Source: SAR86 cluster bacterium AG-422-O05 (GTDB lineage Bacteria > Pseudomonadota > Gammaproteobacteria > Magnimaribacterales > D2472). Taken from it: a stretch of DNA of 64,000 bases. Positions 51,472 through 60,503 of this stretch are shown here, in pieces (position 1 is the stretch's first letter; each line of letters opens with the position of its first letter). Location: NCBI GenBank assembly GCA_003213495.1, contig QCMW01000001.1, positions 372,001-436,000 on the forward strand, in the 5' to 3' direction. A model generated the notes under the pieces. The model worked only from the letters and a program-made list of their open reading frames with translations. It was not told the origin of the DNA and searched no databases. Made by a program: the position numbers and the translations under genes.

Positions 51472-53298
51472 GTGTGCGGAATCATAGCAGCTGCTTCAAA
51501 TAGAAATGTCGGTAAACTTTTAGTTCAAGGACTCCATAAAATGGAATACAGAGGATATGATTCTGCAGGAATTGCTTTGCATCAAGACGATGGCATAGCT
51601 CACCTGCGAACACTTGGAAAAGTTCAGCTTCTTGAAGAAAAAATGATTTCTGAAAAGCCTAAGAGCAAATTGGGTATTGCTCATACAAGATGGGCGACGC
51701 ATGGAGAGCCATCAGAAACTAATGCTCATCCTCACAAATCACAAGATTCGATTTATATTGTTCATAACGGCATTATTGAAAATTACGTTCAGCTTAAAGA
51801 AGATTTAAAGCAAAGTGGCTACGAATTTTCATCACAAACTGACTCAGAACTAATTGCACACCTTCTTGATCATCATATTAATCAAGGCCAATCAATGGTT
51901 GATGCAATGTATGCTGCAAAAGAAAAACTTGAGGGAGCATATGCAATAGCTGCAATTGATATAAAAGATAGTACAAATTTAGTTATTGCGAGGAACAAGT
52001 CACCCTTATTGATTGGCATTGGAACTGATGAGATGTTTGCGGCTTCAGATCCACTTGCTATAGCACAGCAAACCAATGATTTTATATTTTTAGAAGATGG
52101 TGATGTTGCAGAAATCTCTGCAAATACTTATAAAATTTTTGATGAATCTAAAAAAGAGGTTGTTCGAAAAATTACCCGTATAGACATATCAGCTGAAGCT
52201 ACATCAAAAGGTGGATACAGGCACTATATGGAAAAAGAAATATACGAACAGCCTGAAGCTGTTTCAAATACTATTGATGGAAGAATTGGTGGCGAAGATG
52301 TTTTAGATAATATTTTTGGTCTTGGTTCGAGCGACCTATTTTCAAAAGTGAAGCGCATCCAAATAGTTGCATGCGGAACCAGTCTTCACGCAGGAAGAGT
52401 TGCTGCAAATTGGTTTTCATCTATTGCAGAGTTACCTTGTCAAATAGATTATGCAAGCGAGTATAGATATAGAAACCCACACGTAGATGAGAAATCGTTA
52501 TTAGTAACTATTTCTCAATCAGGCGAAACGGCAGATACATTGGCTGCACTGAATTACGCAAAAGAAAAAGATTATCTTTCTACACTTACAATTTGTAATG
52601 TTCCAACAAGCTCTTTAGCAAGGGAGTCAGAGTTTTCGTTTTTTACAAATGCTGGACCTGAGATTGGTGTTGCCTCAACAAAAGCTTTTACAACTCAATT
52701 GGCAGCATTGATGCTATTAGCATTATCGCTTGCAAAAAGCAGGAATTTAAATCCAAAGCTTAGAGGAAGAGTAGTTCAAGCTTTAAGATTGTTGCCAGAA
52801 ACCATAGCTGAAGCTTTAAAATCAAAAGATCAGATGATTGAGATAGCCCCAGATATAGCCAATAAAGATAATGCACTATTTTTAGGAAGAGGTATTTTTT
52901 ATCCAATTGCTAAAGAGGGAGCACTTAAATTAAAAGAGATTTCTTACATTCATGCTGAGGCATATCCAGCTGGAGAGCTTAAGCATGGCCCACTTGCACT
53001 AATTGATGAAAACATGCCAGTTATAGCTTTGGCGCCAGAGAGTGAAATCGCAGAAAAATTAATTTCTAACCTTGAAGAGGTTAAAGCAAGAGGTGGAACT
53101 CTTTATGTTTGTGCTGATCCATCAGTTACAATGGTGGTTAAGTCGGGCAAATTAATCCCTATGCCCGAATGCGACTTTTTTATGTCACCTATTGTATATA
53201 ATATTCCATTACAAATTCTTTCATACGAAGTTGCTCTCCTAAGAGGAACAGACATTGATCAGCCAAGGAATCTTGCTAAATCAGTGACGGTGGAGTAG
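51472..53298 (+). CDS. glmS: Glutamine-fructose-6-phosphate aminotransferase (isomerizing)
   Basis: 608 residues from a GTG start directly followed by the catalytic Cys (MCGIIAAAS). The glutaminase domain has HTRWATHGEPSETNAHPH; two SIS domains contain ACGTSLHAGR, SQSGETADTLAAL and a C-terminal DQPRNLAKSVTVE. It supplies glucosamine-6-phosphate. No glmS ribozyme-like leader fits in the 2-base gap before it. Its last five codons are the repeated attachment-like sequence of the accessory region. Confidence 0.98.
   Translation: MCGIIAAASNRNVGKLLVQGLHKMEYRGYDSAGIALHQDDGIAHLRTLGKVQLLEEKMISEKPKSKLGIAHTRWATHGEPSETNAHPHKSQDSIYIVHNGIIENYVQLKEDLKQSGYEFSSQTDSELIAHLLDHHINQGQSMVDAMYAAKEKLEGAYAIAAIDIKDSTNLVIARNKSPLLIGIGTDEMFAASDPLAIAQQTNDFIFLEDGDVAEISANTYKIFDESKKEVVRKITRIDISAEATSKGGYRHYMEKEIYEQPEAVSNTIDGRIGGEDVLDNIFGLGSSDLFSKVKRIQIVACGTSLHAGRVAANWFSSIAELPCQIDYASEYRYRNPHVDEKSLLVTISQSGETADTLAALNYAKEKDYLSTLTICNVPTSSLARESEFSFFTNAGPEIGVASTKAFTTQLAALMLLALSLAKSRNLNPKLRGRVVQALRLLPETIAEALKSKDQMIEIAPDIANKDNALFLGRGIFYPIAKEGALKLKEISYIHAEAYPAGELKHGPLALIDENMPVIALAPESEIAEKLISNLEEVKARGGTLYVCADPSVTMVVKSGKLIPMPECDFFMSPIVYNIPLQILSYEVALLRGTDIDQPRNLAKSVTVE
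53284..53298 (+). repeat. Attachment-like core, copy A (3' end of glmS)
   Basis: GTGACGGTGGAGTAG, the codons for VTVE and stop of the real glmS. Matches copy C at 14 of 15 bases and copy B at 12 of 15. The same peptide end is encoded at each copy, so the copies look like remnants of glmS 3' ends. Confidence 0.75.
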
Positions 53299-53300
53299 AT

Positions 53301-53320
53301 TTGGTTGTACCAGTTTTTTA
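53301..53320. repeat. Left terminal inverted repeat of the nuclease unit
   Basis: TTGGTTGTACCAGTTTTTTA, ending directly before the nuclease ATG at 53321. It matches the complement of 53856-53875 at 18 of 20 positions. It starts two bases after the glmS stop codon. Confidence 0.8.
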
Positions 53321-53857
53321 ATGAAACCTACTTTAAAAATTTTTGTTCAGAAAAACTTTTTACAATCGAATGAATGGAAAGAAGTAAAAAAATTATCCAA
53401 TAAGTTGTTTAAACTTCTTTCTGACCCGAATGTAATAAAAAAAATTAAAAAAGTTAATCAACCGGGAGTTTCTAGTCACAAAATCCAAGAAGTAATAACT
53501 AAAGAGTCTGAAAAGATAGGATTTAAAAGTGAGATGAATGGATTATTTTCTAACTATAAAAATTCAAAACTTAGACCTGATTTTTATAAAAAGGTATTAA
53601 AAACAGGTGTGATAATTGAAGTTGAGAAAGGACAAACAGTTCAAAACAATAATGATTTAAAAGATTTTTGGAAATGTCATATTTGTGATGAAGTTAATTA
53701 TTTATTTCTATTTGTTCCTCAGATTCTTATTCAGAATGAAGAAGACAAAAGAAAGAAAAGTAAAAAACCTTTTAAAGATGTGTGTAATCATATGACTTCA
53801 TTTTTTGAACCACAGAATTACACTAACGTAAGGGGAGTTGTTGTCTTTGGATATTAA
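53321..53857 (+). CDS. PD-(D/E)xK-like endonuclease, restriction-enzyme-like
   Basis: 178 residues, soluble and very basic. A nuclease-type core is visible: LRPDFYKK (Asp87) followed by GVIIEVEKGQT (Glu100, Glu102, Lys103), NNNDLKDFWKCHIC and a hydrophobic strand YLFLFVPQ. This ExE-K arrangement resembles type II restriction enzymes of the BamHI/BglII kind, which is a comparison from memory. There is no methyltransferase in the window. The ORF fills the space between two 20-bp inverted repeats. It could be a solitary restriction or homing-type nuclease. Confidence 0.6.
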   Translation: MKPTLKIFVQKNFLQSNEWKEVKKLSNKLFKLLSDPNVIKKIKKVNQPGVSSHKIQEVITKESEKIGFKSEMNGLFSNYKNSKLRPDFYKKVLKTGVIIEVEKGQTVQNNNDLKDFWKCHICDEVNYLFLFVPQILIQNEEDKRKKSKKPFKDVCNHMTSFFEPQNYTNVRGVVVFGY

Positions 53858-53875
53858 AAAAACTAGTACAACCAA
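53856..53875. repeat. Right terminal inverted repeat of the nuclease unit
   Basis: AAAAAAACTAGTACAACCAA, overlapping the TAA stop of the nuclease gene. Its complement is TTGGTTGTACTAGTTTTTTT, nearly identical to the left repeat. As RNA the right arm reads in the A-rich sense, so it is not a terminator for the nuclease gene by itself. Confidence 0.8.
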
Positions 53876-53884
53876 TTCAACTTC

Positions 53885-53899
53885 GTTACAGTGGAGTAA
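53885..53899 (+). repeat. Attachment-like core, copy B
   Basis: GTTACAGTGGAGTAA, again encoding VTVE and stop in frame but preceded by an unrelated sequence. It lies 601 bases after copy A and ends the first unit. Confidence 0.7.
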
Positions 53900-54020
53900 G
53901 TTCAACCCAACTTTCGTTTTAACCTCGCATTCTGCGGGAGTTTCAAAAATCACTAAAATTTAACTCCGGTAAAAACTACCCTAAATTTTTTGCCTATTTT
54001 TTCGTATTAGCGGAACTCAT

Positions 54021-54044
54021 AAGGGGTTGATATGACTTGTTGCG
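54021..54044 (+). repeat. 24-base direct repeat, copy 1
   Basis: AAGG followed by two G, then TTGATATGACTTGTTGCG. Identical to 54641-54664 except for the two central bases (GG against TT). It lies 36 bases before the MORN gene. Confidence 0.7.
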
Positions 54045-54080
54045 AAACATGATGGCGAATTAAAGTGGCATAATTAATCT

Positions 54081-54623
54081 ATGACAAAGAAACCCGAAAT
54101 CCCCAAAGAAGAAGACGTTATTTTAAGAAAGGACGGTCTTTATTATGTTAAAGATGCAAAGGTCTCATTTACAGGGATCTCAGAAGATTTTTTTGAAAAC
54201 AGCCAATTAAAATCAAGAGGAAACTATAAAGATGGAAAATTGCACGGACTTTATGTGTTGTTCTATGAAAACGGCCAATTAAAATTTAAAGGAAATTATA
54301 AATACGGAAAAGAGTATGGACTTTATGAGTGGTATCACAAAAACGGTCAACTACATAGCAAGCAAAAATACGAAAAAGGTCAAATTATAGATGGACAGCA
54401 TGAGTGGTTCTATGACAACGGTAAATTAGAGTATAGGGAAACATTTAAAAACGGAAAACTCCATGGTCCTAATGAGTCATTCTACAAAAACGGCCAATTA
54501 CAAAATAGGACTAACTATAAAAACGGAAAACAACATGGACTTAGTGAGTGGTTCGATGAAAACGGTAAGTTTATACAAACCATGACCCTTAGAAATGGTC
54601 AAACCATCGATATTAAGTACTAA
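54081..54623 (+). CDS. MORN-repeat protein, YwqK-type (putative antitoxin family)
   Basis: 180 residues built of about five repeats of the pattern YENGQLKxxGNYKxGKxxGLxEW (for example LFYENGQLKFKGNYKYGKEYG). This matches the MORN-2/YwqK 'toxin-antitoxin system' family, in which a toxin partner is often suggested but rarely shown. There is no signal peptide, so it is probably cytoplasmic. No nearby toxin gene is obvious: flanks are non-coding with direct repeats. Confidence 0.8.
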   Translation: MTKKPEIPKEEDVILRKDGLYYVKDAKVSFTGISEDFFENSQLKSRGNYKDGKLHGLYVLFYENGQLKFKGNYKYGKEYGLYEWYHKNGQLHSKQKYEKGQIIDGQHEWFYDNGKLEYRETFKNGKLHGPNESFYKNGQLQNRTNYKNGKQHGLSEWFDENGKFIQTMTLRNGQTIDIKY

Positions 54624-54640
54624 TCAATTGTTTTAGTTGT

Positions 54641-54664
54641 AAGGTTTTGATATGACTTGTTGCG
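54641..54664 (+). repeat. 24-base direct repeat, copy 2
   Basis: AAGG then TT then TTGATATGACTTGTTGCG, 620 bases after copy 1 and 18 bases after the MORN stop codon. Together the copies bracket the MORN gene. Confidence 0.7.
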
Positions 54665-54848
54665 GTCTGTTGTGTATGTTCAAAGGACATTCATAAGTAC
54701 ATAAAGAATTAGAGAATACAAAAGCAATCTTCATAGAAGCGGAAGAAAAGAATAAAAGTAACCCATGAGTAGTTCATACAACCAAACTTTAAACTTTTCA
54801 AAAACTGCTAAAATAGTGGTTATGAGAAAGATCGGTTCACCTTACTCC

Positions 54849-54863
54849 GTTACGGTGGAGTAG
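54849..54863 (+). repeat. Attachment-like core, copy C
   Basis: GTTACGGTGGAGTAG, encoding VTVE and stop, 14 of 15 bases like the real glmS end. It lies 964 bases after copy B. No further copy was seen to 64 kb. Confidence 0.75.
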
Positions 54864-54882
54864 TTTCGTTTGCAGAATTAAA

Positions 54883-55380
54883 ATGAAGAAAAGTTTATTT
54901 TTAATAGTCATATCATTTATTACCCTTCAAATATTTGCTATAGATATTGACGAATTTATAGAACTTTCAAATCAAACATCTGTTAATAAATTTGAAGACA
55001 ACATAACATCGAGATTAGTTGAATGTAGAAAGGCTGAGAAACTTTCAGAAAATTTACCAGGCGATCCGAGGTTATATATTGGCAAAATTGTACTATATAC
55101 GGAATTTTTTGATTTTGATAATATGAAAACATATTATCTTAAACGGAAATATGATGAAAGAGACACTTCTGTTTTTAATTATAAAATTAGAAAATCTGAC
55201 GTCATTAGACAGTACTTCAATCCAAACCAAGAAATATTTTATATAACAGATGAGAATAGTATTTTTATAAATTTTAGAACCGTATTCGACTATACATTTG
55301 ATAAAAGAACGCTAACACTTCACGGTAGGGGTTACCAAGACCGTGACCCACCCCAATGCAGATACCTTGTAAAGCAATAA
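54883..55380 (+). CDS. Hypothetical exported protein
   Basis: 165 residues, not recognised. The N terminus MKKSLFLIVISFITLQIFA is a clear signal peptide with likely cleavage after FAID or IFA. The mature part has many Arg, Lys and aromatic residues and two Cys (VECRKAEK and PPQCRYLVKQ) that could form a disulfide. It is the first gene after att-like copy C. Confidence 0.65.
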   Translation: MKKSLFLIVISFITLQIFAIDIDEFIELSNQTSVNKFEDNITSRLVECRKAEKLSENLPGDPRLYIGKIVLYTEFFDFDNMKTYYLKRKYDERDTSVFNYKIRKSDVIRQYFNPNQEIFYITDENSIFINFRTVFDYTFDKRTLTLHGRGYQDRDPPQCRYLVKQ

Positions 55381-55385
55381 AGAAT

Positions 55386-55673
55386 ATGGAAGTAAACTGG
55401 ATAGTAGTAGGTTGGATTATAGATATGATTCTTAATGGCTTAGTGTGGCTTATCATTGCAGTATTTTCTCTGTTATTAATTGACATGACTGACACATGGA
55501 CAAGAAAAGCTATTCAATTTATGGACAAGACTGATAAATGGATAAGAAAATTAATAGATAACTTATTTGAATGGATTCAAATGAAGAATCTTGAAATAAT
55601 TTCGGGTATTATTTTGTTGATAGTCTTAGGTATTCTTGCTCAACTAGAAATAATTCCTAAGCTTATTAATTAG
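55386..55673 (+). CDS. Hypothetical protein with two membrane spans
   Basis: About 95 residues from the ATG at 55386 (MEVNWIVVGWII); the track start at 55356 lies inside the previous gene. Spans are near residues 5-32 and 70-87, separated by a basic amphipathic stretch (TRKAIQFMDKTDKWIRKLIDN). Not recognised. Its last codons (IIPKLIN) are copied in the 100-base duplication just downstream. Confidence 0.6.
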   Translation: MEVNWIVVGWIIDMILNGLVWLIIAVFSLLLIDMTDTWTRKAIQFMDKTDKWIRKLIDNLFEWIQMKNLEIISGIILLIVLGILAQLEIIPKLIN

Positions 55674-55820
55674 CATTAAACTAAATAAATAATCAAAAAA
55701 ACTTATCAGTTTTTTATGTATTTAATGTAAATAATTTATGTATTTTTAAATAATTCCTAAGCTTATAAATTAGCATTAAACTAAATAAATAATCAAAAAG
55801 ACTTATCAGTTTTTTATGTA
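55648..55820 (+). repeat. Tandem duplication, 73-base copies 100 bases apart
   Basis: Copies at 55648-55720 and 55748-55820 agree at 71 of 73 positions. Each begins in the sequence for the last codons of the upstream gene (ATAATTCCTAAGCTTAT) and ends with a hairpin. The second copy lacks a gene and is a non-coding copy of the tail. Confidence 0.85.
55696..55715 (+). terminator. Hairpin terminator in the first duplication copy
   Basis: AAAAAACT-TATC-AGTTTTTT gives an 8-bp stem with a four-base loop ending in a T-run, placed 23 bases after the stop of the two-span membrane gene. The stem is A/T-rich, so strength is uncertain. A near copy with one G-T wobble pair lies at 55796-55815. Confidence 0.55.
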
Positions 55821-55837
55821 CTTTTAAAAGTTAGTTC

Positions 55838-56635
55838 ATGAATTTTTTTGAAAGACACACTAAGAAAATATTAATAACATTGATTTTAATAATGATGTTA
55901 ATAATTTTAATGTTTCCTAGATTATTCAAATACCTTTCTGAATTGCCAACTTTCTCACTATACGTCATATTTTTGTTCCCCGTTGCTTTCTTTTTTATTT
56001 ATAAGTTATATGCGAATAAGAAAAGAGTAATTGCTCTTGAAGAATATGCTGAAAAATACAATTATGAATTTTATGAAAAGCCTGACGAAGCTCAAACTTC
56101 TTTATTTAAAGAGTTCAGTTCGACAAAAATAATAAATAATGAAGATAAATTTTTTAATTTGCTAGTTCCTAAAGATGATAATGATACTAAACCATTAATA
56201 GTTACTGGCAAGAGTGAAATTGGAGGTGGAGAAAGTTCTCATACATATTACACTCAGATTTTTTTGTATAAACATAATACTGACTTACCAAAATTTTATA
56301 TTCAAAGAAAAACTAAACTTGATATCATTTTTGGAAAAATAAAAGAGCGCACCTCATCAAACGAAACTGGAATAAAGCTATATAAATTTAAGAAAAAAAA
56401 ATTTCCTCATAATAAATATTTTTTCTTTAGTGAAGACCCAAATATTGAAAATTTTATTACAAATGAATTTATTGAGCTTTTAAAGATAGGGATTATTAAA
56501 AAAAAGGCACTAATAAATATAGAATCAAATGGTAAAAATTTAATTTTTTATAAACAATGGTCAAGACACTCTTTAGAATTAATGGATTACTATTCAAACT
56601 TATTTAAAGTTATAAAAGAATCTTTGATAAAATAG
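55838..56635 (+). CDS. Hypothetical protein with two N-terminal membrane spans and a cytoplasmic domain
   Basis: 265 residues, not firmly recognised. Spans at about 10-27 and 37-58 are followed by a domain starting EYAEKYNYEFYEKPDEAQTSLFKEF and containing SEIGGGESSHTYYTQIFLYKH. That layout (short spans, then a 'cell-like' beta domain after a YAxxxgwef segment) recalls widely distributed uncharacterised membrane proteins of bacteria; this is a loose comparison. A leader of duplicated AT-rich DNA precedes it. Confidence 0.6.
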   Translation: MNFFERHTKKILITLILIMMLIILMFPRLFKYLSELPTFSLYVIFLFPVAFFFIYKLYANKKRVIALEEYAEKYNYEFYEKPDEAQTSLFKEFSSTKIINNEDKFFNLLVPKDDNDTKPLIVTGKSEIGGGESSHTYYTQIFLYKHNTDLPKFYIQRKTKLDIIFGKIKERTSSNETGIKLYKFKKKKFPHNKYFFFSEDPNIENFITNEFIELLKIGIIKKKALINIESNGKNLIFYKQWSRHSLELMDYYSNLFKVIKESLIK

Positions 56636-60131: not shown

Positions 60132-60503
60132 ATGAAAAGTCTTTTAATTGTTTTGTTCTTCAGTTCTATTCTAGATGCCAATCTAAAATACAATCATTAT
60201 TCTAAAGAATATGAAGTTGCGCATCCAAATTCTGTTTTAAAATATAACCATTACAATAAGAAATATACCTATGAAATGCCGGGATCAAAGCTAAAATATA
60301 ATCATTATACGAAGAAGTATACTTATGAGCTGCCTAGATCTGAGCTGAAATATAACCACCATTCAAGGTCTTATTCCTATGAACTGCCAGAGTCAGCCCT
60401 TAAATATAATCACCATACTAAAAAGTATACTTTTGAGCATCCCAGCGCGAAGTTAAAATATAACCCGTATTCAAAACAATATTATTTCCCAAACTACAAT
60501 TAA
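60132..60503 (+). CDS. Exported protein of 18-residue tandem repeats
   Basis: 123 residues. A short signal (KSLLIVLFFSSILDAN) leads five full repeats of 18 residues (18-35, 36-53, 54-71, 72-89, 90-107) and a 16-residue final unit. The unit is like LKYNHYTKKYTYELPRSE; LKYN, Tyr-Lys and Pro positions are conserved. The high Tyr, Lys and His content suggests a surface or periplasmic binding structure, perhaps for metals or polyanions. Not recognised. Confidence 0.65.
   Translation: MKSLLIVLFFSSILDANLKYNHYSKEYEVAHPNSVLKYNHYNKKYTYEMPGSKLKYNHYTKKYTYELPRSELKYNHHSRSYSYELPESALKYNHHTKKYTFEHPSAKLKYNPYSKQYYFPNYN

Follow-up and report, generated by a model that had tools for sequence, protein, structure and literature searches.

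The glmS locus and its repeat-framed unit

The DNA behind glmS contains a single gene that is tightly enclosed by inverted repeats, which raises the question of what kind of unit these repeats delimit and which activity moves it. We analyzed this locus in a stretch of 64,000 nucleotides (referred to as the window), in the 1.28-Mb genome to which it belongs and in other genomes of the same order. The unit is not defined by the nuclease that it carries but represents one of several cassettes in tandem at the 3' end of glmS. As detailed below, such gene-sized cassettes are very probably joined to glmS by a large serine integrase that recombines attP with attB at a central AC dinucleotide.

The repeat search of the window identified an inverted pair of 26 nt (53294-53319 and 53857-53882) with 23 complementary positions (88%) and a distance of 537 nt between the arms. 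At up to 3 mismatches, the 19-nt arm occurred in the window only at these two places, compared to an expectation of 0.05. The ATG of the enclosed ORF, which encodes 178 aa, immediately follows the left arm, and the right arm begins within its stop codon. The tight framing of this ORF described in the earlier note is real, as is the repeat of the glmS end near 53885, which belongs to the repeat-bounded unit. The features of the locus are the following:

51472..53298, + strand, glmS (ORF ending in ...NLAKSVTVE); its last codons, SVTVE-stop, are the proposed attachment site (attB/attL)
53281..53297, + strand, core 1 (TCAGTGACGGTGGAGTA) in the glmS end, central AC at 53287-53288
53288..53888, + strand, cassette 1, 601 bp from central dinucleotide to central dinucleotide
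53294..53319, + strand, left arm of the inverted pair, symmetric about AC, putative P' half-site of cassette 1
53321..53857, + strand, cargo of cassette 1, 178-aa putative BamHI-like nuclease of the PD-(D/E)xK type
53857..53882, + strand, right arm of the inverted pair, putative P half-site of cassette 1
53882..53898, + strand, core 2 (TTCGTTACAGTGGAGTA), copy of the glmS end, central AC at 53888-53889
53889..54852, + strand, cassette 2, 964 bp, imperfect arms
54081..54623, + strand, cargo of cassette 2, 180-aa MORN-repeat protein (Pfam MORN_2, E 1.5e-26)
54846..54862, + strand, core 3 (TCCGTTACGGTGGAGTA)
54853..55385, + strand, third unit with 5' arm GTTTCGTTTGCAGAATT and a 165-aa ORF (54883-55380)
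55386..55673, + strand, conserved boundary gene (MEVNWIVVGWIIDM...), right edge of the array

The gene order at this locus is atpD-atpC-glmU-glmS, which together with the small genome points to a SAR86-like gammaproteobacterium. A 17-bp core at the 3' end of glmS (TCNGTNACNGTNGARTA) encodes Ser-Val-Thr-Val-Glu and most of the stop codon. Three copies of this core were present in the window (53284, 53885 and 54849; 0.16 expected), and the same three were the only ones in the whole genome, all on the glmS strand and all at glmS. Since the boundary gene starts at 55386, the window array consists of two complete cassettes and one additional unit. The 5' leader of cassette 2 includes a hairpin (CCTCGCATTCTGCGGGAG) that is common to cassettes of other genomes, and the 5' arm of the third unit was also found at three other loci (L072, L081 and L084). 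A far arm and core of this third unit were looked for in the window and not found; its matching 3' arm is absent and its far end is decayed or lost.

Several minor repeats were observed in the same region. A 25-bp direct repeat (TAAGGGGTTGATATGACTTGTTGCG, 92% identical) lies on either side of the MORN gene (54020-54044 and 54640-54664), and a 100-bp tandem duplication (55648-55847, 87% identical) overlaps the end of the boundary gene. Further downstream, ORF 60132-60503 encodes a 123-aa protein with five or six repeats of the type LKYNHYSKKYTYELP.

Cassette arrays across the order

Of 203 genomes of the order, 155 contained the core motif, in up to 10 copies and mostly on one strand per genome; controls gave few hits. 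The copies were often arranged in tandem and on the same strand between glmS and the conserved boundary gene. Cutting 60 arrays (59 glmS-proximal regions and the window) at their cores resulted in 208 units of 120-6047 bp with a median of 771 bp. The units tended to be bounded by complementary arms of their own, and the genes inside them differed from unit to unit and were almost always in the orientation of glmS. The right edge is formed by a conserved membrane-protein gene (MEINWVVVGWIIDM...), which was located 3' of the last core in about 19 arrays, often at a distance of 24-60 nt. Cassette ends of the type gatttgaatcgtgatttgtattaag were internal in two arrays (L069 and L078) and adjoined glmS in two others (L080 and L083). 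In the latter array, one core was flipped with the arms on either side in normal orientation (L083:396-412, approximate locus coordinates).

Arms of the class seen in the window (GATTTGGTTGTACC...) bound cassettes with other genes in several other genomes. This bears directly on the proposal that the unit is selfish or self-mobile and is moved by its nuclease. The mobility of the repeat-bounded stretch and its tie to the glmS end stood up to the comparison, while the nuclease had to be given up as the mover, given these other genes between the same arms and the lack of any nuclease relative in 99 sampled genomes of the order. A homing nuclease that carries its own repeat-bounded gene into empty glmS sites would account for the tight fit of the repeats around the ORF and for a protein that looks like an endonuclease, but is scarcely credible: unrelated genes are found in this layout and between these arms, the nuclease homologs lack the repeats, and a recognised nuclease is absent from most cassettes.

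Neither Rfam families nor a tRNA were found at the site, and two core-plus-arm patterns had no match in viral contigs. An empty glmS site adjoining the boundary gene was not found among the loci examined, which counts against the cassette model. Outside the order the core motif mostly occurred as one copy per genome, which was glmS itself. One 1.0-Mb genome outside the order contained two same-strand cores 980 bp apart (G504:C15:143430 and 144410), and the cassette system may thus be present in another streamlined lineage.

Arm symmetry and exchange point

For the 86 units analyzed first, arm scores averaged 10.9 within a cassette's own pair and 6.7 (s.d. 0.23) when the arms were permuted. With a threshold of 12 of 18 own-arm matches at the AC-centred register, 115 of the 208 cassettes qualified, compared to 21 (maximum 34) in 1000 permutations. 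Among the 122 well-matched cassettes, 114 exhibited exactly this register, in which the A and the C of the core lie on either side of the dyad centre. Two observations count against the model: about 45% of the cassettes, including cassette 2 of the window, were without well-matched arms at the chosen threshold, and the arms differ so strongly from cassette to cassette that their tolerance by one enzyme is not obvious.

The exchange point was mapped independently of the dyad by means of the wobble positions of the core. Core pairs that shared only the upstream arm or cassette agreed at positions 3 and 6 and differed at positions 9, 12 and 15 (agreement of 0.83 at position 6 and 0.30 at position 9), while pairs that shared only the downstream arm or cassette followed the reverse pattern (0.24 at position 6 and 0.61 at position 9). 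Similarly, positions 9, 12 and 15 traveled with the cassette (0.67, 0.86 and 1.00) when the same cassette was compared between a location directly after glmS in one genome and one inside an array in another. The opposite agreement upstream and downstream places the breakpoint between core positions 6 and 9, with only the invariant AC between them, and the separately mapped exchange point thus coincides with the AC at the centre of the arm dyad. Exchange across two bases at the midpoint of a dyad is characteristic of serine recombinases, and the core and arm sequences would fit an enzyme of this kind.

The same junctions are informative about a Tn7-like origin, according to which the arms would be the terminal inverted repeats of a transposon guided to glmS by a TnsD-like protein. 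In its favour, attTn7 is classically located at glmS and the variation of the core falls on glmS wobble positions. This reading is nevertheless very improbable: Tn7 would insert about 25 bp downstream, but the junctions are inside the last glmS codons; it would create a short target-site duplication, but here core halves are swapped; and the arms differ between cassettes. Transposon and homing readings were both dropped because other genes carry the same arms.

A candidate integrase and the recombinase census

One element combines the layout of the cassettes with a candidate enzyme. In genome G031 (L076), the first unit after glmS is 6 kb in size, has the same core and is bounded by the arms AGTTTAGTCGGTCTTTC and GAAAGACCGATTAAACT. 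Its products include a rolling-circle-type Rep protein and a protein of 551 aa in which Resolvase (6e-24), Recombinase (1e-11) and zinc-ribbon domains were recognised, and arms of its class (AGTTTARTCGGTC) were present on small cassettes in three other arrays (L069, L070 and L071). The link between enzyme and array is provided by this one element. Its array was the only one found among the 203 genomes with a serine integrase inside, which speaks against the model, and few genomes of the order (6 of 203) encode serine recombinases. No serine recombinase was found in the window or its genome, so the cassettes of this host are presumably mobilised in trans. Viral contigs contained no relatives of the G031 integrase.

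Small stand-alone proteins related to the Recombinase domain PF07508, the DNA-binding domain of serine integrases, recurred in ten arrays (L069, L084, L121, L123, L124, L126, L132, L144, L148 and L152) and could be directionality or target factors.

A search with PF00589 retrieved two strong tyrosine recombinases each in the genome of the window and in most of nine genomes tested, with extra matches only in G035 and G063; the two per genome were taken as XerC and XerD. This census is relevant to an integron-like alternative in which cassette ends, folded as single strands, are recombined with the end of glmS by a tyrosine recombinase (IntI, XerCD or an unknown enzyme). Such a process would explain arrays of mostly single-gene, same-strand and apparently promoterless cassettes, whose joined ends would form hairpins and whose arms, as in attC, vary in sequence while complementarity is kept. 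It is nevertheless unlikely, considering that XerC and XerD are the only strong candidates in the window's genome and most of those tested, that exchange occurs at GTN-AC and not at G^TTRRRY, that the core is conserved and near-palindromic rather than free, and that the sole recombinase found inside an array is a serine integrase. The integron reading was dropped as the search retrieved no IntI and exchange occurs at an unsuitable point.

Proposed mechanism

Returning to a serine integrase, the dyad and the exchange at the same AC, together with an integrase-bearing element of the same layout, suggest that the repeats are the attP halves (P and P') and the glmS end is attB. In an excised circle, the core TCNGTN-AC-NGTNGARTA would lie between the 3' arm and the 5' arm, and the three together would form a dyad-symmetric attP, which a large serine integrase would join at the central AC to attB, the last codons of glmS. 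As the wobble-position comparison with glmS itself shows that an inserted cassette replaces these codons, its left end must encode the glmS tail. Each cassette would accordingly bring a new glmS end (ACNGTNGARTA), preserving the GlmS protein, and leave a core copy on its far side. Integration would split attP, and the halves at the cassette ends would then be the inverted repeats that hug the gene. Most cassettes lack an integrase and would be moved in trans by autonomous elements such as the 6-kb element of G031.

In its broader form, this proposal describes a general serine-integrase platform for gene capture, in which any gene between matched half-sites would become a cassette that is mobilised in trans, docks at the glmS end and restores its coding sequence. 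Such cassettes would have built up into arrays throughout an order of streamlined bacteria, analogous to the integron but independent of it. We consider this extension somewhat more likely than not.

Relation to known systems and significance

Tandem composite islands are also known among SCC and ECC elements. As proposed for the arrays described here, SCCmec and ECC (CcrAB at rlmH) combine large serine recombinases, islands in the 3' region of a conserved gene, flanking direct repeats, and inverted-repeat dyad symmetry in the circular and attR sites (PMC6222049). In contrast, the target here is glmS rather than rlmH, a single integrase in one autonomous element (G031) replaces the CcrAB pair, and the units mostly comprise 0.2-2 kb and one gene instead of tens of kb; the majority of the sampled genomes of the order contain such units, in most cases with no accompanying integrase.

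Integron cassettes share the one-strand arrays of mostly single genes, the lack of obvious promoters, the cassette-specific complementary ends and the mixed accessory cargo. They differ from the glmS arrays, in which no IntI was found and which exhibit a conserved glmS-like core, core-symmetric arms, no attI platform, and GTN-AC exchange instead of attC R''/R' sites with G^TT exchange.

Additive flexible genomic islands of Ca. Methylopumilus resemble the arrays in that copies of a gene 3' end mark serial insertions in streamlined aquatic bacteria; their target is the 3' end of tRNA-Lys, and the passages on them describe neither cassette-specific inverted arms nor an exchange point (PMC10872708). 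Tycheposons are likewise cargo-carrying mobile elements of streamlined marine bacteria, but measure 4-200 kb, are tRNA-associated and use tyrosine recombinases (PMC10872708). The glmS array would combine an SCC/ECC-like site logic, an integron-like form and serial repeats like those of additive islands, and is a member of none of these by the tests applied. No description of a glmS cassette system was found in the open-licence literature searched, a scope that does not amount to proof of novelty.

The system would explain how small accessory genes, including restriction and defence genes, are exchanged at one housekeeping locus in streamlined, recombinase-poor bacteria, and would represent a second route, beside the integron, to arrays of mostly single-gene cassettes. 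Arms and core together provide a boundary signal for the precise cutting-out of hundreds of mobile genes, most of them of unknown function, from genomes and metagenomes, and the arrays could be a source of new serine integrases with a natural, conserved chromosomal target.

Cargo and its expression

Of 129 units, 123 had the cargo gene on the glmS strand and 6 on the opposite strand. In 59% the cargo started no more than 40 nt from the core, so that there is hardly space for a promoter and transcription by read-through from glmU-glmS is likely. A scan for promoters and terminators revealed no more than in shuffled sequences. The cargo spanned a variety of functions including type I and III restriction-modification, a C5 methylase, an MvaI/BcnI-type nuclease, HNH and MORN proteins as well as many unknowns.

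The 178-aa protein as cassette cargo

The label of PD-(D/E)xK nuclease given to the 178-aa protein in the earlier note is plausible on the basis of conserved residues and weak structural matches, though no significant family match was obtained in Pfam, NCBIfam, PHROGs or PADLOC. E71, D87 (RPD87) and E100-x-E102 (E100-V-E102) are invariant in four sequences (the protein and its relatives), with a BamHI-like spacing. BamHI and OkrAI were the first Foldseek matches (E 0.09-0.2, weak) of a low-confidence structure model (pLDDT 58.5). The protein thus looks like an orphan endonuclease of the BamHI type, and it would presumably be active as a nuclease; its role in the unit is that of cargo.

Relatives were not detected in phage and plasmid collections or in viral contigs, and the nearest homologs were found in Bacteroidota with 39-44% identity. 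Of the two findings that the earlier note had set against a selfish unit, one was made, as the three nearest homologs are without the repeats of the window; the other, a normal restriction system with a methyltransferase, was not, as none was recognised beside them in the ORF lists of L001-L003. Likewise, no methyltransferase was recognised beside the gene in the window, where its neighbors are the MORN gene and an unknown. Two of these three homologs lie between integron attC-like hairpins (GTTATGTGC and GCACATAAC; L001:4858-5650 and L002:4834-5665), so this gene family seems to ride two unrelated cassette systems.
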